Assembly: GCF_016616425.1 (NCBI RefSeq)
Contig: NZ_CP067101.1
Coordinates: 3,472,001-3,536,000, forward strand
Source: Bradyrhizobium diazoefficiens
Lineage (GTDB): Bacteria > Pseudomonadota > Alphaproteobacteria > Rhizobiales > Xanthobacteraceae
Length of the DNA stretch: 64,000 nucleotides
Direction: 5' to 3'
Made by a program: the position numbers and the translations under genes. Within the stretch, counting starts at the first letter, position 1, and every line of letters starts with the position of its first letter. Shown here one piece after another: positions 3,113-46,236 of the stretch. The notes beneath the pieces are model-generated. The model was given only the letters and a program-made list of their open reading frames with translations. It was not told where the DNA came from and ran no database searches.

Positions 3113-3690
3113 CGTAGGTATCGTCCATCCCGCCCGCCGCAAGGGGCGTTTCGCGACCGTCACGAGACGCGGGCAGGGAGGCGGTGGCCGCGACGGCGTC
3201 GGCGCGCTGGGCAAGCTGCAGGGCGGGAATTTTCCGTGAGCAGCGGTTCGCGCGAGACGACACGGCGCTGACAGCGTCCTCGTTCGGCCGCGATGGCGAG
3301 CGCACGCCAGCCATCGCGGGCAGGGGCTGAGGATGCGCGCGGACGGCGAAATCGTGTGGTCCTGACGCCCGGGGTCTGTGCGTCAAGTGTTGCGGTGATT
3401 GCAGCGGCCCAACCGGGTCCGCGTATCAGCTATCCGCAAGGCGACGGGGGCAATAGTGCATCGCTCCCCGAGGAGAGCGCGACATAAGCCGTAAAACCAT
3501 CCGCGCAGGGAAGGCCGGGATGTTCCGGCGTCACCTGTTGTCCGCCCCGTGCGCGTCTTGTTCGCACACGGGACTGCGGGTGCCAGCCGGCATCCGGCCT
3601 TCCCTGCGCCCTTTCGTAACAAAGGGCGCAACGAGGAGAGCAAAGCTCGGGCGAAGTGAGCCGCGAGAACGCGAAGATGCGTCTGCGCGC
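3113..3690. repeat. Long dispersed non-coding element typical of Bradyrhizobium (approximate ends)
   Basis: The stretch from about TCGTAGGTATCGTCCATCCC to the CTCGGGCGAAGTGAGCCGCG block matches my memory of a several-hundred-base sequence found in many copies between genes in Bradyrhizobium and relatives. Recurrent parts include CGCAAGGGGCGTTTCGCGA, GTGTGGTCCTGACGCC, AGCCGTAAAACCATC, GCGCAGGGAAGGCCGGGATG and CCTTCCCTGCGCCCT. The last two blocks are partly complementary and could pair. No reading frame here has family character. The ends are estimates. The remainder of the gap (2868-3112 and 3691-3766) shows nothing I can name. Confidence 0.55.
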
Positions 3691-3766
3691 CGGACTGAGA
3701 ATTGGGTGATCGCGACGATCTGTCAAACTGCGTCATTGCGACACCGGCTCGACCAGAAGAACACCG

Positions 3767-3886
3767 ATGGCCTTTCGCCCGCCTTTCCGCCCCTCCGGCG
3801 GCATCCCGAATCCGAACGATCCGACCGGCGTGTCGCCGATCGGCGATGCCGCCGTGTTCGGCGTCACCACCACGATCAGGTATTAG
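3767..3886 (+). pseudogene. Possible C-terminal remnant of an outer-membrane protein
   Basis: A 39-codon frame ending AVFGVTTTIRY. The alternating pattern with a terminal aromatic residue is what the last beta strand of an outer-membrane barrel looks like, so this could be the tail of a lost TonB-dependent receptor or porin. It has no convincing ribosome binding site and overlaps the MFS stop codon by four bases on the other strand. It could equally be a chance frame. Confidence 0.25.
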
Positions 3887-5178
3887 GCCATTGCTGGTTT
3901 CGGCTGCGGCTTCGGTTGCCGCGACAGTGACAGCACGATCAGCGATGCGAACACGCAGAGCGCACCGGCGATGAAGAACGCGGGCAGGTAGCTCTGGAGC
4001 AGCGTCCGCGACAGGCCGGCGCCGAATGCGGCGGTGCCGGCGCCGAGCTGGTGACCGGCAAAGATCCAGCCGAACACCAGATTGGCGCGCTCGGGCCCGA
4101 ATTTCTGCGCGGTGAGACGCACCGTCGGCGGCACCGTGGCGATCCAGTCGAGGCCGTAGAACATCGCGAAGATCGACAGGCCGTAGAACGAGAAGTCGCT
4201 GAACGGCAGGAAGATCAGCGAGAGGCCGCGCAGGCCGTAGTACCAGAACAGCAGGTAGCGATTGTCGTAGCGGTCCGACAGCCAGCCCGACATGATGGTG
4301 CCGAAGAAGTCGAAGATGCCCATCGCCGCGAGCAGGCTCGCGGCCTGCACCTGCGGGATGCCGAAATCGAGGCACATCGGGATCAGGTGGACCTGGACGA
4401 GGCCGTTGGTGGAGGCGCCGCAGACGAAGAAGGTCGCGAACAGAATCCAGAATGCAGATGATTTCGAGGCATCGCGCAGCGTGCCGAGCGCTACCGCCGT
4501 GATCGAGCCATGGCTTGCGGGCGGAGTGGGCAGCGGCTCGGTGCCTTCATCGCCGAACGGACGCAGGCCGACATCGCTCGGCCGGTCGCGCATTGCGAGC
4601 AAGACGGCCAGCGCGGAGACACCGAGCATGATGCAGATGAAACCGAGCGCGCGGCGCCAACCGTAGCGTTCGGTGAGGCTGGCCAGCAGCGGCAGGAACA
4701 CGAGCTGGCCGGTGGCGACGCTCGCAGTCATGATGCCGATGACGAGACCGCGCCGCGCCGCGAACCAGCGCGTGGCGATGGTCGCGCCTAGCACCAGCGC
4801 GGTCATGCCGGTGCCGATGCCGATCACCACGCCCCACAGGGCAACGAGCTGCCAGACCTCGGTCATGCCGAGCGAGAGCACGAGCGCCGAGACGACGATC
4901 AGCTGCGCGGCCAGCGTGACGTTGCGCAGGCCATAGCGGTTGAGCAGGGCGGCCGCGAACGGCGCCATCAGTCCGAACAGGATGAAGCGGATCGACAGCG
5001 CGGCGGAGATCTCCGCGGTGCTCCAGCCGAACTCCTTCTGAAGCGGATCGATGAATACGCCGGGCGCGCCGACCGTGCCGGCGCTGATCAGCGCGGCGAG
5101 GAAGGTGACGCCGACCATCACCCAGCCGTAATGAATGTTGCGGCGATTGAGGGTTGCCGCCAGCCAGTTCGAGATCAT
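3883..5178 (-). CDS. MFS transporter, monocarboxylate/oxalate-formate type
   Basis: A 431-residue membrane protein with about 12 hydrophobic segments. It starts NRRNIHYGWVMVGVTFLAAL, a beginning common to the oxalate:formate antiporter/monocarboxylate branch of the major facilitator superfamily. The cytoplasmic loop after helix 2 contains LLNRYGLRNV, the region of the conserved MFS motif. A long central loop (about residues 205-225, DRPSDVGLRPFGDE) separates the two halves. Substrates of the branch are small organic acids, which fits the neighbouring thiolase and enoyl-CoA hydratase genes on the same strand. The actual substrate is not known. Confidence 0.8.
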   Translation of the reverse strand: MISNWLAATLNRRNIHYGWVMVGVTFLAALISAGTVGAPGVFIDPLQKEFGWSTAEISAALSIRFILFGLMAPFAAALLNRYGLRNVTLAAQLIVVSALVLSLGMTEVWQLVALWGVVIGIGTGMTALVLGATIATRWFAARRGLVIGIMTASVATGQLVFLPLLASLTERYGWRRALGFICIMLGVSALAVLLAMRDRPSDVGLRPFGDEGTEPLPTPPASHGSITAVALGTLRDASKSSAFWILFATFFVCGASTNGLVQVHLIPMCLDFGIPQVQAASLLAAMGIFDFFGTIMSGWLSDRYDNRYLLFWYYGLRGLSLIFLPFSDFSFYGLSIFAMFYGLDWIATVPPTVRLTAQKFGPERANLVFGWIFAGHQLGAGTAAFGAGLSRTLLQSYLPAFFIAGALCVFASLIVLSLSRQPKPQPKPAMA

Positions 5179-5326
5179 CGGATTTCCTTGGAGACCGAAA
5201 GGGTCATTACTTACAGCGTGCTTGCTGCCAACGCTCTGTCAGTAGCGGCCTCGCCGAGCCTGCCAATCTGGCATAAGTAGGGGAAGTCGAAAATGTCAGA
5301 CTTCCCTCAATTTCGGACATCGACGC

Positions 5327-6523
5327 TCAGCGGGCCGGCCGCTCGACGGCGATGGCCGTGGCTTCGCCGCCGCCGATGCACAGCGCTGCGATACCGCGCT
5401 TGAGGTTCTGCGCCTCGAGCGCATGCAGGAGCGTCACGATCAACCGTGCGCCGGTCGCGCCGATGGGATGGCCGAGCGCGCAGGCACCGCCATTGATGTT
5501 GAGCTTGTCGCGGCGAATGCCGAGATCGCGCTGCGCCGCCATCACCACCACGGCAAAAGCCTCGTTGATCTCGAACAGGTCGACATCGGAGGCAGCCCAG
5601 CCGACCCTGTCGAGCAGCTTGCGGATGGCTGGGATCGGCGCCGTGGTGAACCATTGCGGCTCCTGGCTGTGGGTGGCGTGGCCCTTGATCTCCGCGAGAA
5701 CAGGCAGACCGTCCCGATCGGCAAGCGACCGTTTCGTCAGCACGAGCGCAGCGGCGCCGTCGGCATTGGCGGAGGAAGCCGCGGGCGTGATCGTGCCGTT
5801 GGCGCGGAATGCCGGCTTCAGGCCCGGGATCTTCGCCGGATCGACCTTCAGCGGATGCTCGTCATTGGCGATGATGCGAGGTCCCGCCTTCTCGGTCAGC
5901 GTGATCGGTGCAATCTCGGCCTTGAACGCGCCGCCTTCGACCGCCTTGCGCGCGCGGCTCAGCGTCTCCATGGCGTAGGCGTCCTGGTCCTTGCGGGTGA
6001 ACTGGTACGCCTCCGCGGTGGCCTCGCCGAAATCGCCCATGGAACGGCCGGTCTCGTAGGCATCCTCCAGCCCGTCCATCATCATGTGGTCGATGATGCG
6101 GTCATGGCCAACGCGATAGCCGCCGCGTGCCTTGGCCAGGAGATACGGCGCATTACTCATGCTCTCCATGCCGCCGGAGACGACGATAGCGGCCGAGCCG
6201 GCGCGAATGATGTCGTGCGCCAGCATGGTCGCCTTCATGCCGGAGCCGCAAACCTTGTTGACGGTGGTGGCGCCGGTGGCATCGGGAAGACCGGCCGCGC
6301 GCGCGGCCTGACGCGTCGGGGCCTGGCCCTGGCCGGCCGGCAGCACGCATCCCATGAAGACCTCGTCGATTTTCTCGGGGGCGAGCCTGGCGCGCCCGAG
6401 CGCCGCGCCGATCACGTGGGATCCGAGCTTGTGCGCGGGGAGCGGCGACAATTCACCTATGAAGCGGCCGAGCGGGGTGCGGACGGCTGAAACGATGACG
6501 ACGGGATCGGCGGCTTCGGCCAT
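5327..6523 (-). CDS. Acetyl-CoA acetyltransferase (thiolase)
   Basis: A 398-residue thiolase that cleaves 3-ketoacyl-CoA with CoA or condenses two acyl-CoAs. All catalytic signatures are present: nucleophile Cys in NKVCGSGMKA (about residue 88), the NEAFAVV motif, the His motif GGACALGHPIGATGAR, and the second Cys in CIGGGEATAI near the C-terminus. The start chosen is MAEAADPVVIVSAVRTPLG; an in-frame extension of 62 codons upstream has no family similarity. The gene lies 148 bp downstream-convergent with nothing between it and the MFS gene, and may share a transcript with it. The length fits biosynthetic or degradative thiolases of about 390-400 residues. Confidence 0.92.
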   Translation of the reverse strand: MAEAADPVVIVSAVRTPLGRFIGELSPLPAHKLGSHVIGAALGRARLAPEKIDEVFMGCVLPAGQGQAPTRQAARAAGLPDATGATTVNKVCGSGMKATMLAHDIIRAGSAAIVVSGGMESMSNAPYLLAKARGGYRVGHDRIIDHMMMDGLEDAYETGRSMGDFGEATAEAYQFTRKDQDAYAMETLSRARKAVEGGAFKAEIAPITLTEKAGPRIIANDEHPLKVDPAKIPGLKPAFRANGTITPAASSANADGAAALVLTKRSLADRDGLPVLAEIKGHATHSQEPQWFTTAPIPAIRKLLDRVGWAASDVDLFEINEAFAVVVMAAQRDLGIRRDKLNINGGACALGHPIGATGARLIVTLLHALEAQNLKRGIAALCIGGGEATAIAVERPAR

Positions 6524-6703
6524 GATGGGGGCTCCCTGGCGATAATGCGTAAGATTATAACCATCATATGATGCGGCGCAAAAAATGCAACCGCACGAGG
6601 GATGAGAAAATCTCGTCGTTCGGATGAGATTTAGTCGTTCGAACATAGGAGTGGTGCTGATCTGGCGCTTCAGTATATGCGCGGCCATCGCCTTACACGC
6701 CGC

Positions 6704-37963: not shown

Positions 37964-39562
37964 ATGACAGCAGCACAGCACGACCGCTCCGCGTCGACGC
38001 CCTCGGTGGCCTCGGCGCACGACAAGATTCTCATCGTCGACTTCGGCAGCCAGGTGACGCAGCTGATCGCGCGTCGCGTGCGCGAGGATGGCGTCTATTG
38101 CGAGATCGTCCCGTTCAGCAAGGCCGAAGCCGCCTTCAACGAGATGAAGCCGAAAGCAGTGATCCTCTCCGGTGGGCCTGAGTCGGTGCATGAGGCTGGC
38201 TCGCCCCGTGCCCCGCAGACGATCTTCGATTCCGGGGTGCCCGTGATGGGCATCTGCTACGGCCAGATGACCATGGCCGCCCAACTCGGCGGCGAGGTCG
38301 AGGGCGGCCATCACCGCGAATTCGGCCGCGCCGATGTCGAGGTCAAGGCGCCGAGCCGGCTGTTCGAGGACGTCTGGTCGCTTGGCGGCAAGAACCAGGT
38401 CTGGATGAGCCATGGCGACCGCATCACAAAAATGCCGCCGGGCTTCTCCGTTGCCGGCACCTCGCCGAACGCGCCGTTCGCGATCATCCAGGACGAGACG
38501 CGCAAATATTACGGCCTGATGTTCCACCCCGAAGTGGTGCACACGCCCGACGGCGCGAAACTGATCCGCAACTTCGTCCGCAAGATCGCCGGCCTTTCCG
38601 GCGACTGGACCATGCGCGCCTTCCGCGAGGAGGAGATCGCAAAAATCCGCCAGCAGGTCGGCAAGGGCAAGGTGATCTGCGGCCTGTCCGGCGGCGTCGA
38701 TTCAGCCGTCGCGGCCGTGCTGATCCACGAGGCGATCGGCGACCAGCTGACTTGTGTCTTCGTCGACCACGGCCTGCTCCGCCTCGACGAAGCCAGGACC
38801 GTGGTCGACCTGTTCCGCCACCATTACAATATCCCGCTCGTGCACGTGGACGCCTCGAAGCAGTTTCTGGGCGAGCTCGAAGGCGTCACCGATCCCGAAA
38901 CCAAGCGCAAGACCATCGGGCGCCTCTTCATCGAGGTGTTCGAGCAGGAGGCCAAGAAGATCGGCGGCGCCGACTTCCTCGCGCAAGGCACGCTCTACCC
39001 AGACGTGATCGAGAGCGTCTCCTTCACCGGCGGACCTTCAGTCACCATCAAGTCGCACCACAATGTCGGCGGTCTCCCTGCGCGCATGAACATGAAGCTC
39101 GTCGAGCCGCTGCGCGAGCTGTTCAAGGATGAGGTGCGCAAGCTCGGCCGCGAGCTCGGCCTGCCCGAAATTTTCGTCGGCCGCCACCCGTTCCCGGGCC
39201 CGGGCCTCGCCATCCGCTGCCCCGGCGACATCACCCGCGACAAGCTCGACATCTTGCGGAAAGCGGATGCCGTCTACATCGACCAGATTCGCAAGCACGG
39301 CCTCTATGACGAGATCTGGCAGGCCTTTGCCGTGCTGCTCCCGGTGAAGACGGTGGGCGTCATGGGCGATGGCCGTACCTATGACTATGTCGTCGGCCTG
39401 CGCGCCGTCACCTCCACCGACGGCATGACCGCGGACTTCTACCAGTTCGACATGAAGTTTTTGAGCGAGACCGCCACGCGCATCATCAACGAGGTGAAGG
39501 GCGTGAATAGGGTGGTGTACGACGTGACCAGCAAGCCGCCGGGGACGATCGAGTGGGAGTGA
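37964..39562 (+). CDS. guaA: GMP synthase (glutamine-hydrolysing)
   Basis: A 532-residue enzyme that aminates XMP to GMP. The N-terminal class I glutamine amidotransferase shows [19 protein letters not shown] (Cys nucleophile) and [13 protein letters not shown] (His, Glu). The ATP-pyrophosphatase domain shows [21 protein letters not shown], and the C-terminal dimerisation domain ends KPPGTIEWE. The start at MTAAQHDRS fits best; an in-frame ATG at 37865 adds 33 codons of low similarity. The last codons of guaA are a known integration site for genomic islands, and copies of them recur at 43.1 and 46.2 kb. Confidence 0.96.
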
Positions 39563-39566
39563 GGGA
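39545..39566 (+). other. Candidate attachment core at the guaA 3' end (att-1)
   Basis: The final guaA codons plus a few bases (ACGATCGAGTGGGAGTGAGG). About 19-20 of 25 aligned positions are repeated at 43,098 and 46,215, in the same orientation. Because the gene end is intact, this copy would be the site retained by guaA after insertion. Confidence 0.6.
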
Positions 39567-39689
39567 TCGCAGAAAAGGGTGGGTCTGGGATAATCAGGGA
39601 TAGGGCCGCGAGGTGAGCTTTATCCATCGTCTTCGATAATCCTCGATAGGTGCGAGACGACCGGATCATGCAATCGCGCACGGCCGGAA

Positions 39690-39924
39690 TCCTTAGTCGA
39701 GAGCAGTGACCTCCGCCTCGGAATGCGTCGGGCAAAACAATGAGCTCAGCAGCCATATGTGTCTGGCTATTTTTCGGACCTCGTCGTCGGAGCTCGTTTG
39801 TGCGCCGTTGAACGAAGCGCATGAAGGAGGGCCGGGGGCGCGCAAGACAGCGGACGATCTTCGCAGGCTCCGTATGACGGAAAGTAGGGATACGACTGAT
39901 GCGCCGATCTAGCCACTGCATTAC
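39690..39924 (-). pseudogene. Rearranged C-terminal remnant of a second ECF sigma factor
   Basis: On the minus strand, MQWLDRRISRIPTFRHTEPA (about 39,850-39,924) aligns with LQWVGRQISRIRDFRHARYA in the C-terminal tail of the sigma factor at 40,528-41,439. A second fragment near 39,690-39,723 reads EAEVTALD followed by a stop, matching the last residues PAEVTALD. About 130 bp of unrelated sequence lies between them. This is best read as the broken tail of a duplicate sigma gene next to the intact one. The rest of the gap (39,567-39,689) shows nothing I can name. Confidence 0.6.
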
Positions 39925-40379
39925 CCTTGCGCCCTCTTCTTCTGCATCTGCACCGCCGCCTCCATGCCCTCGATGACCATAGGATTCTCGTATGCCATCA
40001 GGTCGTCCAGAGCAGCCTGTTCGAGCGGGACCTCGGTAAAGAATGAGAGAACCCATGTCGTGGTGATCTTCTTCCCGCTGGGGAGAGGGACATCGACGCG
40101 CGGCAGGTTGCATGCGGAGCTGATGGCGTCCCTGACCCGCTTGACGAGCCGGCCTTTTCCCTCGCCATGGAGTCCCGGTGGGACTACGAATGTGCAAATG
40201 GGCCGTAGGCCGCCGACCTCACCGTCGATGCTCGTCTGATCGGGGGACCACTCGCGGAGGAATACCCGGGTGTCCCCTATTGCGTAGGCATCGTGGATGG
40301 AATCCGCGACCTCTTTCACGAGCCGCTTCTTGGTATCCATGTTGAGGTTGGAGGGTATATCGACGTATGCGACGGGCAT
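39921..40379 (-). CDS. Tautomerase-superfamily protein
   Basis: A 152-residue protein starting MPVAYVDIP, so removal of Met exposes Pro1, the catalytic base of 4-oxalocrotonate tautomerases. Two beta-alpha-beta halves can be seen: PVAYVDIPSNLNMDTKKRLVKEVADSI and RPICTFVVPPGLHGEGKGRLVKRVRDAI, like fused or long 4-OT members. The last 40 residues (LEQAALDDLMAYENPMVIEGMEAAV) are an extra helix. Start supported by CAGGAGAAATCAG. An ECF-type promoter identical in layout to those of the neighbouring sigma operon lies 74 bp upstream. The natural substrate is unknown. Confidence 0.8.
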   Translation of the reverse strand: MPVAYVDIPSNLNMDTKKRLVKEVADSIHDAYAIGDTRVFLREWSPDQTSIDGEVGGLRPICTFVVPPGLHGEGKGRLVKRVRDAISSACNLPRVDVPLPSGKKITTTWVLSFFTEVPLEQAALDDLMAYENPMVIEGMEAAVQMQKKRAQG

Positions 40380-40452: not shown

Positions 40453-40481
40453 AAGACGTTCCGCTACCGGCGAAGGATTCC
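40453..40481 (-). promoter_or_regulatory. ECF sigma promoter of the tautomerase gene
   Basis: On the minus strand GGAATCC, a 16-base spacer and CGTCTT. The bases around the boxes (GGAATCCTT-GCCG) are shared with both promoters at 41,781-41,866. Spacing and box type fit an ECF sigma promoter; the sigma gene beside it is the obvious candidate reader. Confidence 0.7.
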
Positions 40482-40527
40482 GCGTGCGCAAGAAATATTT
40501 GGATTGGCTGCCGCACCACGTTGATCC

Positions 40528-41439
40528 TTAATCGAGAGCCGTGACCTCCGCAGGCTCCATCGCATACCGCGCATGACGGAAATCACGGATACGGCTGATT
40601 TGCCTACCTACCCACTGCAGCAGAATGAAATAGTCAGGCTTATCTGGCGGATCGTGGGGATGACGAACGATGAGCGCCGGCCGCCGGTCAACAAAGCCCA
40701 AGTCGAGGCGCCAGTCGTGGATACTGGCGTAATTGCCAAAATACCGCTCGACTTCGGAACGCCCTCTCATGTGGGATTTGCTGACAAGCTCGAGTTGTAC
40801 GTCTTCCGCCAGCATGTCGCGCACAGCGTCGAAATCGCGATCATTGAAGTGGGCCACATAAGCCGCCAGCCGGTCACGTTCGGCCTCACTGAGAACTGGC
40901 GGAGTGAGATCGTCGGGCTCGAGCGCGACGAGACGCAGTTGCTCGCGACCGCTATGTAGTGCGGCCTTCACGGCTGGAATGCTTTTGCCGGAGACGTCGC
41001 CGATCTCCTCAAGCGAATACCCGAGCACGTCCTTCAGGACCACGCTGCTGCGCTGCACCACCGGGAGCCGCATGAATGTATGCAGGGCGGCTGCGGCGGC
41101 CTGTCGCTGAAAAACCTCGTCGACCGGATCGGCCTTCATATCCACATCTTCGTCGGTCTCAAATACCTTTCGCCGTTCGCGCTGGCGTAAGAAATCCAGC
41201 GCCGCATTGTGAGCGATGCGAAATAGCCAAGCCTCTGGATTCTCGATTGCTCTCACACGCGGAAGAGCTTCGACGGCCTTGGTCAATGCTTCCTGTACAA
41301 CATCCTCGGCCTCGACCACGGAACCGACCATACGCGCGCAGTACCGATGCAGCTTGGGTCGTAGGCCGATAACGATGCGTTCCAGCTTTTCCGCCTCTAC
41401 GGGTTTGGGCGCTGTCGTAACTTTGATGCCATCTTCCAT
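40528..41439 (-). CDS. ECF RNA polymerase sigma factor with SnoaL-like C-terminal domain
   Basis: A 303-residue group 4 sigma factor. Region 2 is LHRYCARMVGSVVEAEDVVQEALTKAVEAL plus NPEAWLFRIAHNAALDFLRQRE (residues 30-95). Region 4 is LPVVQRSSVVLKDVLGYSLEEIGDVSGKSIPAVKAALHSGREQLR (residues 125-170). The last 120 residues form an NTF2/SnoaL-like domain (SEAERDRLAAYVAHFNDRDFDAVRDMLAEDV) ending DFRHARYAMEPAEVTALD. ECFs with such tails usually lack a separate anti-sigma and are controlled by the tail. It is cotranscribed with the small gene 13 bp upstream from a GGAATCC-N16-CGTCTT promoter, suggesting autoregulation. A decayed second tail lies at 39.7-39.9 kb. Confidence 0.9.
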   Translation of the reverse strand: MEDGIKVTTAPKPVEAEKLERIVIGLRPKLHRYCARMVGSVVEAEDVVQEALTKAVEALPRVRAIENPEAWLFRIAHNAALDFLRQRERRKVFETDEDVDMKADPVDEVFQRQAAAAALHTFMRLPVVQRSSVVLKDVLGYSLEEIGDVSGKSIPAVKAALHSGREQLRLVALEPDDLTPPVLSEAERDRLAAYVAHFNDRDFDAVRDMLAEDVQLELVSKSHMRGRSEVERYFGNYASIHDWRLDLGFVDRRPALIVRHPHDPPDKPDYFILLQWVGRQISRIRDFRHARYAMEPAEVTALD

Positions 41440-41452
41440 TCTCGATGGACCT

Positions 41453-41749
41453 TCAGATTTCAGTAAGCATACGATAGTTGCCGACGATCGATGCTTCCAG
41501 TTGTTGCGGCTCATCCAGGCGTCGCTCTTCTCCACCCCGACGAAACGCGGCGAAGGCGTCGAGGCTCGCGACCGTCTTTGAGGCGTCCTCGACCAGGTGG
41601 CAGAATGTCCCGTCGCTGAGCTTGAGCACCAGGTATCGGACGTGTTCCGGCCCTTTCGCATGCAGTTCGCGGAAGACGTCGCGGATTAAGTTCTCATTTT
41701 CCTCAATTTTCTCCGGTTTGGCCCGATAGCGCACGAGCATGCGGGGCAT
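41453..41749 (-). CDS. Small dimeric alpha-beta barrel (monooxygenase-like) protein
   Basis: A 98-residue protein, MPRMLVRYRAKPEKIEENENLIRDVF, with a strand-helix-strand pattern like antibiotic-biosynthesis-monooxygenase and related ferredoxin-like dimers. YLVLKLSDGTFCHLVE forms the middle strands. No catalytic residue can be named. AAAAGGAGCGATCT gives an excellent ribosome site. First gene of the sigma operon: 13 bp before the sigma start and downstream of the left promoter of the mirrored pair. It may be the effector or sensor partner of the sigma system, but this is inference. Confidence 0.65.
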   Translation of the reverse strand: MPRMLVRYRAKPEKIEENENLIRDVFRELHAKGPEHVRYLVLKLSDGTFCHLVEDASKTVASLDAFAAFRRGGEERRLDEPQQLEASIVGNYRMLTEI

Positions 41750-41780
41750 AGATCGCTCCTTTTCGATTGTCACACTGACT

Positions 41781-41866
41781 AAGACGAACCGGGCACGGCA
41801 AAGGATTCCGTGTCTCGGAAAAATTTCAACTTCGTACCGAATCCTTTGCCGTGCCCGGTTCGTCTT
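41781..41866. promoter_or_regulatory. Mirrored divergent ECF promoters forming a perfect 28 bp inverted repeat
   Basis: 41,781-41,808 and 41,839-41,866 are exact complements around a 30 bp centre. Each arm, read outward, contains GAATCC (GGAATCC on the minus side), a 16-base spacer and CGTCTT; the outer boxes end 31-32 bp before the start codons of the minus-strand sigma operon and the plus-strand NmrA-type gene. The tautomerase promoter has the same boxes and spacing. This is best explained as two identical promoters for one ECF sigma factor, back to back. Confidence 0.75.
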
Positions 41867-41898: not shown

Positions 41899-42777
41899 AT
41901 GATCTTGGTAACCGGCGCTGCGGGCCTTAACGGTTCGGCGGTCATACGTGAATTTTCTCGCAACGGGGTACCGGTGCGTGCGCTTGTGCGCGGTCGGTCG
42001 AAGGCTGGAGCGTTGGCGGAATTGCCATATGTCGAACTGGTCGAAGGAGATATGGCGCGCCCCGAAACGCTGGATCGCGTACTGGACGGTATCGATCGCG
42101 CTCTGATGATATCTAGCTCTAACCCGCAGATGCTTGAGACGCAGTGTCGGTTTATTGATACTTGCAAGGCCGCCGGGGTAGCTCACGTAGTCAAGTTTTC
42201 AGGCAAGGAATCCGGCATCGGCTTCGACGCGAAGAATTTCCGCTTCACGCGAATGCATGAAGAAATCGAGCGGTATCTGGAGGGTTCGGGGCTCGGCTGG
42301 ACACATTTGCGTCCGAGCCAGTTTATGCAGGTCTACCTGCGGGAAGCACCAGTTGTTGCCGGCAAAGGCCTACTGCTGCTGCCGCTCGACGGCGTGAGGC
42401 TCTCGCCGGTTGACGTCGAGGATATCGCCAAGATTGCGTTCGCCCTTCTCACCCAAGGCGGCCATCAAGGTCGCGCGTTGGATATCACGGGGCCGCAGTC
42501 TTTAAGCATGGCTGAGATCGCAGCAGCCCTCAGTGAGGCGATCGGAAAACCGGTCAAATATCAAAGCATAAGTCCCGAGGAGCGCCGGCGCGGCATGCAA
42601 GCGGCCGGCCTGCCGCCATTCATGATCGATGCGCTTCACGAACAGGCGCTGGAGCGGCTTCGCCATCCTCAGTCGAGCGTCGAACTTGGAGCGCACGAGC
42701 TGTTTGGCGTGGAGCCAACAAGCTTTGTAGATTTTGCTAGACGCCACGCCGCAGTCTTTGGGAACAACATCAACTGA
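41899..42777 (+). CDS. NmrA-family NAD(P)-binding oxidoreductase
   Basis: A 292-residue atypical short-chain dehydrogenase: MILVTGAAGLNGSAVIREFSRNGVPVRALVRG (dinucleotide site), GDMARPETLDRVLDGIDRALMISSSNP, and VVKFSGKESGIGF, in which the usual Tyr-x-x-x-Lys is not evident. This fits NmrA/QOR2-type quinone reductases or redox-sensor proteins. AGGAGGATTGC precedes the ATG. It is driven by the right arm of the mirrored ECF promoter pair, so it is probably co-regulated with the sigma operon. A related truncated tail lies at 43.8-44.06 kb. Confidence 0.85.
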   Translation: MILVTGAAGLNGSAVIREFSRNGVPVRALVRGRSKAGALAELPYVELVEGDMARPETLDRVLDGIDRALMISSSNPQMLETQCRFIDTCKAAGVAHVVKFSGKESGIGFDAKNFRFTRMHEEIERYLEGSGLGWTHLRPSQFMQVYLREAPVVAGKGLLLLPLDGVRLSPVDVEDIAKIAFALLTQGGHQGRALDITGPQSLSMAEIAAALSEAIGKPVKYQSISPEERRRGMQAAGLPPFMIDALHEQALERLRHPQSSVELGAHELFGVEPTSFVDFARRHAAVFGNNIN

Positions 42778-42933: not shown

Positions 42934-43119
42934 ATCGACCGATCGATGCCGATAGTCGTTAAAACCGAGGGGATTTCAAATCGTCGAAATTCTGCTTCGA
43001 AATCAAGAGCGCCAATTTCTGACGGATCGCAGAGACGGTTCTTTATCGCGGGTACAAAAAATTGCGTCGTTATATCAAGGCATTACAATCAATCAAAACA
43101 ATCGAGTGGGAATAGGGGA
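42934..43119 (+). repeat. Island-end repeat copy A with guaA-like core (att-2)
   Basis: About 187 bp that align with 46,052-46,236: GATGCCGATAGTCGTTAAAACC vs GATGCCGATCGTCGCTGAAACC, then AATCGTCGAAATT, GAAATCA-GAGCGC-AATTT and TGACGGATCGCAGAGACGG. Both copies end in a guaA 3'-end look-alike; here ACAATCGAGTGGGAATAGG (43,098-43,116). In frame, this end reads TIEWE-stop, just like GuaA. The DNA is visibly AT-richer than its surroundings. Best read as the right end of a former element inserted at guaA. No gene is supportable in 42,778-43,136. Confidence 0.6.
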
Positions 43120-44127: not shown

Positions 44128-45270
44128 CTACGGGGCGCACAATTCTTCTAATCGCGAGACAGCCGTGGAGATGCCGGGCGATCTCAGAATCGCGTCTGCG
44201 AGCAAACGAGCATTCGCCGCATAGGATGGAGCCAATATCAGTCGATCAATTGCCTGTCCTATCTCGGACGACGTTGCCGTGTCGCCTTCGAGCGATAAAC
44301 CGCATCCGAGATTTTGGACTTGGGCTGCCAAGATCGGTTGATCGCCAGCGGGATTTGGCAGGCAGAGCAGGGGCACCCCGTGCTTCAGCGAGGCCGTAAC
44401 CGTGCCGTGCCCGGCATGAGTAATGGTCACAGCAACATGTGGGAGAATCTCATCGTGAGGAATGCGCCGAACGACTGTCGCATTGTCGGGCACAATTGCT
44501 GGATCGAGTTCAATTGAGCCTGCGGTCACGAGCGCCCGGCAATCGCGATCGCGTACCGCGTCAAGCGTTCTTAAAATGCGCGAGGTTTGATCCCAGTATG
44601 GCCCCGTCGAAAAGCTGACCAATACGAGTGGGCGAGGGTCATTTGCCTGCCAAGGCGGTTGCCAACCGGACGGCGGAAGGTCTTCGATGATCGGTCCAAG
44701 ATAGGTGAAGGCCGCCGGAGCTTGCGCGGCCAATGGGTCCAGTTGGCGGATACTGTTTGACAGTGACGGAAAGCGTGCCCAGCTCTCCCATAGGCTTCCG
44801 ACACGCTGCAATCCGGCCCCGGCTCTCAGCTCGTTGACCGGCCCCAGAACTTGAGATTCAAATCGGCCTTTGGGCGGCATCAGGGCGCCTGGCGCACTGT
44901 GGATCAGCGTCGCGACTGGCACATGAGTGCTCTCGGCTGCCGCCAAGGCTCCGAACATGAGGCAATCGATGACAACCGCGTCGTACAACTCCTCGGAAAT
45001 CAAGCGTGGCAGGTCAAACAAATGGTCTGGCGTTGCCCAGACAGCCCGCAACTTGACGGCAAACATGTGCTCAGGCGCCGCATCGCGCCAGGCCGCCGAG
45101 GAGCGTCCGAGCAATACGAAGCGAAGGCCGCGCTCGGTGAAGTAGCTGCATTGGTTTGCGTAACCGGCGAACGTTATCTCGTGACCGCGCCTTCTCAGCG
45201 CCTGCGCTGTGGCAACTGCCGGCGGCTGGTTGCCGGCGCCGTTCCAGGTCAGGAACAGAAAGCGCGGCAT
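44128..45270 (-). CDS. Glycosyltransferase family 1 (MGT/UDP-sugar type)
   Basis: A 380-residue GT-B glycosyltransferase of the macrolide/UGT type. It starts MPRFLFLTWNGAGNQPPAVATAQALRRRGHEITFAG, the N-terminal acceptor domain. The C-terminal donor motif is ITHAGHGTVTASLKHGVPLLCLPNPAGDQPILAAQV, with the H and the D-Q pair that contact the nucleotide sugar. Such enzymes glycosylate small hydrophobic compounds, often to detoxify antibiotics or finish natural products. The ATG is one base past the TetR stop region, so the pair is one operon under the palindromic operator at 45,847. It probably glycosylates the ligand sensed by the TetR protein (inference). Confidence 0.88.
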   Translation of the reverse strand: MPRFLFLTWNGAGNQPPAVATAQALRRRGHEITFAGYANQCSYFTERGLRFVLLGRSSAAWRDAAPEHMFAVKLRAVWATPDHLFDLPRLISEELYDAVVIDCLMFGALAAAESTHVPVATLIHSAPGALMPPKGRFESQVLGPVNELRAGAGLQRVGSLWESWARFPSLSNSIRQLDPLAAQAPAAFTYLGPIIEDLPPSGWQPPWQANDPRPLVLVSFSTGPYWDQTSRILRTLDAVRDRDCRALVTAGSIELDPAIVPDNATVVRRIPHDEILPHVAVTITHAGHGTVTASLKHGVPLLCLPNPAGDQPILAAQVQNLGCGLSLEGDTATSSEIGQAIDRLILAPSYAANARLLADAILRSPGISTAVSRLEELCAP

Positions 45271-45271
45271 C

Positions 45272-45850
45272 TCACATCGCCCCCACGATCGCATTGACCA
45301 ACGACAAGATCGTCTTTTCCGTCTCCGGTCTGGATCGGCCCATATCACGTCGCAGCAGCGCCCACGTATACACGTCGCAGACGCATACCAACTCGTCTGT
45401 CAGCGACCGACGGCGCGTCGGATCCACTTGCGCGATTTGCGTTTCGAATTGCCGTTGCACCCATTGACGGTGACCGGCCCTCCCGACAGCAATAAGTTCC
45501 GGGTCCGCCCGCTCCGCGAGATTTCGGATCACGAGATCGCCAAACTGCTCGTAGTGGTCAAGGAGTGCCCCGACAGCGCCTTTGAGGTCCCCCGGTTCGG
45601 CTCGGAGCCGTTGCTCCCTTATTTCCTGGAGCAGGGTCGCAAATGCCGTATCGAGCAGCTCCGACCGGCTGCCGAACACGTTGATGATTGTTTGGACCGT
45701 CACCTGCGCGCCCTCGGCAATGTCTTCAAGCCGGATCTCGGACCGAAACCGGCTTGTTAGCAGGGTGACAACGGCTTCGAGAATCCGCCGCCGTGTAGCC
45801 TCCGCTGCGGCTGCTCTCGCACGCATCGTATATGAGCGAGCCATTTTCAT
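45272..45850 (-). CDS. TetR family transcriptional regulator
   Basis: A 192-residue regulator. The helix-turn-helix spans EATRRRILEAVVTLLTSRFRSEIRLEDIAEGAQVTVQTIINVFGSRSELLDTAF (residues 17-70). The C-terminal domain is all helical with no recognised ligand motif. Starts at MKMARSYTMRARAAAA; the third residue (45,844) is an alternative. There is no good Shine-Dalgarno site, as the start lies inside the operator. It is followed by the glycosyltransferase gene with a one-base gap. Likely a self-repressing switch that opens when a toxic compound binds. Confidence 0.88.
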   Translation of the reverse strand: MKMARSYTMRARAAAAEATRRRILEAVVTLLTSRFRSEIRLEDIAEGAQVTVQTIINVFGSRSELLDTAFATLLQEIREQRLRAEPGDLKGAVGALLDHYEQFGDLVIRNLAERADPELIAVGRAGHRQWVQRQFETQIAQVDPTRRRSLTDELVCVCDVYTWALLRRDMGRSRPETEKTILSLVNAIVGAM

Positions 45851-46051: not shown

Positions 46052-46236
46052 ATCGAGCGATTGATGCCGATCGTCGCTGAAACCGGCAGATCGCGAATCG
46101 TCGAAATTCCCTTTGAAATCACGAGCGCGAATTTTTGACGGATCGGAGAGCCGGTCTTTCGCTGTACGCTGGACGTATCTGCGGCGGAAAATCAGCGCGT
46201 TACGATGAGGCAGAACAATTGAGTGGAAGTGAGGGG
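46052..46236 (+). repeat. Island-end repeat copy B with guaA-like core (att-3)
   Basis: Second copy of the segment at 42,934-43,119, about 185 bp, same orientation. It ends ACAATTGAGTGGAAGTGAGG (46,215-46,234), nearly the guaA 3' end, and encodes TIEWK-stop in frame. Differences from copy A are scattered, so the duplication is old. The bases on either side (45,871-46,051 and 46,237-46,334) contain no gene that I can support. Confidence 0.6.

Follow-up and report, generated by a model that had tools for sequence, protein, structure and literature searches.

In ECF41 sigma factors, a C-terminal tail regulates the sigma factor, and neighbouring genes are the only targets detected according to the available part of the description; the ECF41 promoter carries the −35 element TGTCACA (PMC3426412), and the linker and the tail are marked by the signatures YVGPWLPEP and NPDKL, respectively (PMC7730460). 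SigG1 (ECF56) of Streptomyces tsukubaensis is described as using the promoter CCG-N17-CCCTCC and controlling scattered developmental targets, and its antagonist, RsfG, is a small, soluble, dimerizing protein that is co-transcribed with it and has no Pfam domain (PMC7730460). ECF294 is a proteobacterial SnoaL-tailed group with a Herbaspirillum representative, to which the accessible part of the source assigns no regulatory role (PMC8999054).

Here we describe a module found in a 64,000-nucleotide stretch of the Bradyrhizobium diazoefficiens genome (the window). Judging by sequence comparison, a SnoaL-tailed ECF sigma factor encoded there quite probably forms a self-activating local regulon that comprises its own operon and the genes of an NmrA-type oxidoreductase and a tautomerase-like protein.

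The sigma factor, its neighbours, and described classes

The sigma gene (positions 40528–41439, minus strand) encodes a 303-residue protein. Its Pfam matches to Sigma70_r2 (66.1 bits) and Sigma70_r4_2 (32.0 bits) were both over the cut-off, no sigma3 family was among the Pfam matches, and the C-terminal domain matched SnoaL_2 at 25.4 bits, just under the cut-off of 27. The protein is an ECF sigma factor, with sigma2 and sigma4 and without sigma3, that carries a SnoaL-like tail. An earlier reading of the DNA by a model that saw only the letters (the sequence-only reading) had proposed a minus-strand sigma operon. The operon is present, with the sigma gene in second place: the first gene, separated by a 13-nt gap, encodes a small protein of 98 residues with an ABM fold in the AlphaFold model (41453–41749, minus strand). 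Downstream of the sigma gene and also on the minus strand lies the gene of a tautomerase-like protein assigned to the 4-oxalocrotonate tautomerase superfamily (Pfam/NCBIfam; 39921–40379; 152 residues, with Pro directly after Met), while the gene of an NmrA-type NAD(P)-binding oxidoreductase (Pfam NmrA; 41899–42777, plus strand; 292 residues) diverges from the ABM gene. Downstream of the tautomerase gene, positions 39689–39921 (minus strand) hold a second, decayed copy of roughly the final 30 codons of the sigma gene, with 93% identity over 27 nt and 80% over 50 nt; it is a trace of an earlier duplication or recombination.

Sigma relatives (E ≤ 1e-30) were found in 45 of 149 related genomes, in 7 of a class sample of 385, and in 15 of a phylum sample of 398, the module's own genome being counted each time; viral contigs yielded no relatives, whereas metagenome contigs encode a 75%-identical sigma factor (P0002) and a 79%-identical tautomerase (P0122). 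The best PDB match of the sigma factor, both by sequence (E 3.8e-17) and by predicted model (pLDDT 77.3, pTM 0.66), was SigG1 (7qh5), followed, by model, by SigJ (5xe7); these were the only solved SnoaL-tailed factors among the matches. The SigG1 match holds domain by domain, because whole-length superposition was poor (TM 0.37, rmsd 15–17; TM 0.32 for SigJ). The modelled tail resembles ketosteroid isomerases, NTF2, and limonene epoxide hydrolase, and, going by Pfam and this model, is of the SnoaL/NTF2/ketosteroid-isomerase type.

The module resembles ECF41 systems in its SnoaL-kind C-terminal extension with no anti-sigma gene seen adjacent, in the neighbouring enzyme genes, NmrA/epimerase genes included, as putative local targets, and in the −10 element CGTC at a spacing of ~16 bp (PMC3426412). 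The neighbouring COE gene typical of ECF41 is represented by NmrA (PF05368, at 41899–42777; NmrA/epimerase genes count as such). The −35 element is different, GNATCCTT instead of the TGTCACA of ECF41, so the box type that the sequence-only reading had ascribed to known SnoaL-tailed ECF factors is not that of this class (PMC3426412). TGTCACA-N15–17-CGTC was found in neither promoter region of the module; a single plus-strand TGTCACA lacks a −10 element, and the −35 element reads GAATCC. Other differences from ECF41 are the ABM-fold partner gene, the back-to-back promoters, and the tautomerase, MFS, and DUF899 targets discussed below. YVGPWLPEP and NPDKL are absent from the module sigma factor, as is DGGGR, which we take to be a further ECF41 signature; the first two occurred in none of 104 sigma sequences at one mismatch or fewer. 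The module would appear to work like an ECF41 system, yet it has neither the −35 element nor the linker of one.

SigG1 differs from the module sigma factor in its promoter (CCG-N17-CCCTCC is absent from both module promoter regions), its scattered targets, the domainless RsfG, and the low TM given above (PMC7730460). With ECF294, compared by description only, the module shares its proteobacterial host and the SnoaL tail (PMC8999054). With RpoE8 (ECF29) of Sinorhizobium meliloti it shares the copying of the sigma factor's own promoter before a neighbouring gene, unlike it in the boxes, which for RpoE8 are GGGAAC at −35 and GCATCC in the −10 region, as read from the published sequences (PMC6180224). 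No paper describing the motif or the gene set was identified among the literature matches listed, and the accessible parts of Masloboeva et al. on Bradyrhizobium EcfQ/EcfF (PMC3420878) and of PMC4842269 contain nothing on this sigma factor; the main ECF classification may already define the group.

Promoter sites in the window, the genome, and relatives

Re-reading of the sequence located all three GAATCC-N16-CGTCTT sites where the sequence-only reading had put them. GGAATCC-N16-CGTCTT precedes the tautomerase gene (40453–40481, minus strand) and the ABM–sigma operon (41781–41809, minus strand), and GAATCC-N16-CGTCTT precedes the NmrA gene (41839–41866, plus strand). The perfect 28-bp inverted repeat claimed for the divergent region was confirmed: its left and right arms, 41781–41808 and 41839–41866, are exact reverse complements (a repeat search gave the same inverted repeat as 31 nt at 97%). 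From the ends of the outer CGTCTT boxes to the genes there are 31 nt on the ABM-like side and 32 nt on the NmrA side, again as had been described.

Taken alone, the short pattern is weak evidence: the window has two matches where 0.51 would be expected by chance, and shuffling reached two 8 times in 100 (spacers 14–18). A genome search with it, which the sequence-only reading had suggested, gave 11 exact matches to GGAATCC-N16-CGTC, only two of them in the module. With one mismatch there were 275 genome matches compared to 55 in the control, and so the sigma factor may have weaker extra targets elsewhere in the genome. The promoters are significant because of the 28-bp repeat, the longer core GNATCCTT-N14-CGTC, and its conservation. 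This core occurs exactly 10 times in the 7.14-Mb genome, and 0 times when the pattern is read backwards. Three of the ten are the module sites, which lie outside mechanically called ORFs of at least 150 aa and have positive motif-model scores; the other seven are inside such ORFs and have negative scores, and therefore the strong-site regulon consists of the module only.

The motif model was trained on 22 sites from the ABM upstream regions of 27 relatives, with the window excluded. In the 64 kb it ranked the module sites first to third, at 21.1 (tautomerase), 15.5 (NmrA), and 9.8 (ABM–sigma operon), the next site scoring 7.0; the test is strong but not blind, because the training sites were chosen with a loose pattern suggested by the window. 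At a score of at least 8, the model gave 92 matches in the 834,550 bases of 80 named loci from relatives, and one in the reversed sequences. Of the exact cores in these loci, 95 fall within 56,000 nt upstream of sigma (a 700-nt stretch for each of the 80 loci) and four within the other 778,550 nt, a ~330-fold enrichment; these four cores also precede genes. On the sense strand, the exact core is present in 65 of the 80 loci. In the 15 loci where it was absent within 700 nt, a one-base variant stood in its place 10 times, and one locus (L096) had a site with a spacer one base longer. The remaining four (L095, L130, L142, and L147) had no exact, one-base, or longer-spacer site within 700 nt; L095 has an exact site 1.75 kb upstream of sigma. 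Five more distant plasmid sigma relatives (L166–L168, L170, and L171) had no site with one mismatch or fewer. Thus the relatives' motif model, the genome cores, and the 80 loci lend comparative support to the earlier proposal that one sigma factor reads all three promoters, as predicted from sequence.

One of the distant relatives, L166 (NZ_CP084753.1, a record named Roseateles sp. XES5), has annotated ABM and EthD genes, then the sigma relative, and after it an encapsulin and DyP-peroxidase pair (3212–6686), with no motif there at one mismatch or fewer.

The relatives' promoters share a third element, a conserved A/T tract ~20 nt upstream of the −35 G. A usable site for scoring was present in 72 of the 80 loci, and single and paired promoters were sorted by hand. 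Against AAAWWTWTTTT, which we take to be the consensus for the UP-element core, the tract averaged 9.1 matches out of 11 over the 38 single promoters and 9.4 over the 34 back-to-back ones; shuffled versions of these stretches gave 5.7 and 6.1, respectively. In back-to-back pairs, one tract lies between both −35 boxes; in the window, this UP-element-like tract is at 41819–41829 (8 of 11 to the assumed consensus, assigned to neither strand). The tautomerase promoter has its own tract upstream of the −35 box (40490–40500, minus strand), the best of the module's three (10 of 11). The subfamily thereby gains a precise predicted promoter: A/T tract, GNATCCTT, N14, CGTC.

Back-to-back promoters and exchanged target genes

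Of the 80 named loci, 32 have a strict back-to-back promoter pair, as do the window and a further locus (L059). The two −35 boxes are 23–30 nt apart in the named loci (most commonly 26), 20 nt in L059, and 31 nt in the window. With target families named by Pfam on representatives, the divergent gene in the 32 strict pairs encodes an MFS transporter in 26, a DUF899 protein in five, and NmrA in one. The five DUF899 loci carry the ABM gene on the divergent side, behind the other promoter. The single NmrA pair is from Bradyrhizobium sp. CSA207, whose NmrA is 68% identical to that of the window.

The perfect identity of the arms seen in the window turned out not to be a conserved feature. All 14 free spacer bases are identical between the arms here, compared to means of 5.03 for the remaining 33 strict pairs and 5.11 for arms taken from different loci; the palindrome is private to the window genome among the pairs compared. 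Between divergent genes, a perfect palindrome of 28 bp is what an operator usually looks like, and the −35 and −10 boxes would then be secondary to the binding site of a classical dimeric regulator. We consider this very improbable, since relatives keep the boxes and not the palindrome, the tautomerase site is single-copy, and single promoters were scored in 38 loci. Perfect repeats are known to arise when template switching corrects an imperfect palindrome, which may explain the repeat here. Concerted evolution of promoter arms was rejected as a general process: outside the window, sharing a locus does not make two arms more similar. The second −35 base agrees between arms in 29 of 34 pairs; arm covariation was discarded as proof of one sigma factor, since only two independent differing pairs exist on the tree, and they are unsupportive.

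Outside the pairs counted above, the motif accompanies further genes near sigma relatives. In Rhizobium sp. AB2/73 it precedes an alpha/beta-hydrolase–ABM–sigma operon and, with one mismatch, a GFA-like gene; a 61%-identical NmrA lies ~7 kb from sigma with an exact motif on its own strand, and an insertion sequence, recognized from ORF sequences, stands between sigma and NmrA. A second site precedes GST–NmrA in a Nevskia MAG, and sites precede SDR genes in two Bradyrhizobium loci. Opposite ABM–sigma, both L059 and a Rhizobium lentis plasmid have a tautomerase relative (~29% identity); one arm of the plasmid pair has one mismatch. That sigma relatives elsewhere also have the motif in front of nearby genes, NmrA and tautomerase genes included, agrees with the single-regulator interpretation of the sequence-only reading. 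MFS, DUF899, GST, GFA, SDR, and alpha/beta hydrolase genes are of kinds common in xenobiotic handling. At 3140–5464 of locus L169, an insertion that looks IS21-type from its ORFs splits the ABM–sigma operon from its NmrA target, and the exact motif is kept.

A search of 72,556 plasmid records gave 18 with a sigma match (E ≤ 1e-20). One of these also has the only tautomerase match among all the records (E ≤ 1e-5), the two genes lying ~0.6 kb apart across back-to-back promoters. It is improbable that the targets of the sigma factor are limited to its own operon and NmrA, with the tautomerase gene adjacent by chance and preceded by a similar site or a relic promoter. Such a reading would fit the failure to match the tautomerase at E ≤ 1e-10 in 295 other genomes of the family and its position next to the sigma-gene remnant, but among the three sites that of the tautomerase has the top model score and the best A/T tract, and the relatives in Rhizobium lentis and L059 face ABM–sigma across back-to-back promoters.

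In a sigma tree of 104 rows, at least nine changes of partner label were counted over the labelled rows, with NDH2 and ClC/MarR neighbours included as labels. The window and CSA207 form a pair in this tree (SH-aLRT 90), each on a long end branch. NDH2 (19 loci) and ClC/MarR (13 loci) adjoin the sigma operon (protein-similarity groups, one representative of each named), and are not counted as targets because strict back-to-back pairs are absent from all 32 loci. By these comparisons, the constant parts are the sigma factor, its predicted promoter, and usually ABM, and the putative targets change. Relatives thus keep a similar sigma factor and promoters, often with other enzymes or pumps under predicted control; back-to-back promoters with exchangeable targets would make a natural, compact, and possibly orthogonal expression switch, and illustrate how one sigma factor can have a regulon rebuilt around it.

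The two putative target enzymes were assigned with different clarity. The NmrA protein matched Pfam NmrA at 85.9 bits (cut-off 27), its nearest solved sequence being the ketoreductase SimC7 (E 1.6e-37). The tautomerase stayed under the cut-offs of Pfam PF01361 (E 3.6e-4, 20.8 bits, cut-off 22) and NCBIfam DmpI (E 2.6e-8); its Pro2 (also numbered Pro1) is conserved in all 14 rows of the alignment, one of which is the window's. The sequence-only reading had presented the four-gene combination as possibly undescribed. The exact set was indeed not found elsewhere in the genomes searched, but its kind and subsets recur, so the module belongs, as a variant, to a wider family and does not stand alone; that reading was largely right on regulation and overstated uniqueness. 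The set was ruled out as a conserved unit, with the window's NmrA in two and its tautomerase in none of the 80 named loci (tblastn, E ≤ 1e-5).

The ABM-like protein has no Pfam match of its own, and Pfam ABM was touched, weakly, by 3 of 22 of its relatives. Its AlphaFold model (pLDDT 91.7) has as best PDB matches the antibiotic biosynthesis monooxygenase 4hl9 and LsrG (3qmq), with TM 0.72. The gene precedes sigma in 28 of 29 relatives fetched, and in one of these 28 it is partial at a contig end. Tentatively, and compatibly with a local sigma regulon, the ABM-fold protein may be no enzyme but the cognate partner of sigma, a soluble anti-sigma factor or ligand sensor like RsfG, with the NTF2 tail serving solely as docking surface. 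It is the most widely kept partner, found in 69 of the 80 loci across differing target genes and, in the five DUF899 loci, on the divergent side; moreover, the nearest solved protein, SigG1, has a small co-transcribed dimerizing antagonist (PMC7730460). Against this, no ABM was found in 11 of the 80 loci (tblastn, E ≤ 1e-5), five of which are MFS-type Mesorhizobium loci with normal promoters, and the nearest solved folds include the enzymes LsrG and SnoaB. With a partner gene that is often present and a few local targets, alongside the predicted promoter, the signal and the mechanism of the subfamily become testable in ordinary rhizobia.

For the self-activating local regulon, we infer autoregulation, the signal, the direction of tail control, the substrate, and a detoxification role as follows. 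The SnoaL-tailed sigma factor, made from the ABM–sigma operon, would guide RNA polymerase to promoters of the form GNATCCTT-N14-CGTC that have an A/T tract upstream. Three units would be switched on together: its own operon (positive feedback), the divergent NmrA gene, and the tautomerase gene. As long as the signal is absent, sigma2/sigma4 would be kept inactive by the C-terminal NTF2-fold domain, possibly together with the ABM-fold partner. A small compound, probably aromatic or electrophilic, would free the sigma factor, and the NmrA enzyme and the tautomerase would reduce or isomerize the compound, and so end the signal.

The guaA repeats and the origin of the module

Direct repeats of the guaA 3′ end with GAGTGGGA bound the module at both ends, on the left at 39545–39566 and on the right at 43098–43119 (both plus strand). 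A third copy, GAGTGGAA, is at 46215–46236; with up to two mismatches, these are the only copies in the genome, and all three are in tandem within the window. GIsul2 integrates at GAGTGGGA of guaA, and, as far as the available part of its description goes, the module is like it in the insertion site and the repeated att sites (PMC9376610). Unlike GIsul2, the module interval has no integrase match (none of the genome's 19 matches to Phage_integrase, the family searched, is within it), and its cargo is the sigma module; it is perhaps a decayed or cargo-only element. The G+C content of the cassette interval is 57.4%, compared to 64.0% for the window. There is no tRNA in the 64-kb window that could serve as a tRNA-type integration site. 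The module was probably acquired as a cassette, because it sits between repeats of the guaA 3′ end, a known integration site.

A broader joint reading can be entertained as a possibility that we regard as rather unlikely: a SnoaL-tailed sigma factor, an ABM sensor or antagonist, and a promoter pair with a shared tract would form a plug-in switch with exchangeable targets, carried as a guaA-mobile cassette. Its exchanged detoxification genes, on the same doubtful footing, would be those of MFS, DUF899, GST, SDR, NmrA, and tautomerase proteins.

The three guaA 3′-end copies bound two small cassettes. The second contains a YjbR-family gene, an MGT-like glycosyltransferase, and a TetR-like regulator. 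The macrolide-type glycosyltransferase gene (44128–45273) adjoins the TetR-like regulator, possibly as an antibiotic-inactivation pair, and no sigma motif-model site with a score of at least 6 was found near it.

A stricter guaA 3′-end pattern matched in 12 of 60 relatives, two of which (G015 and G031) carry this end twice, 3–4 kb apart; perhaps the genus has a family of small guaA-site elements. In tandem repeats from two related genomes (L174/L184 and L182/L185), the sequence just before the distal repeat is shared.
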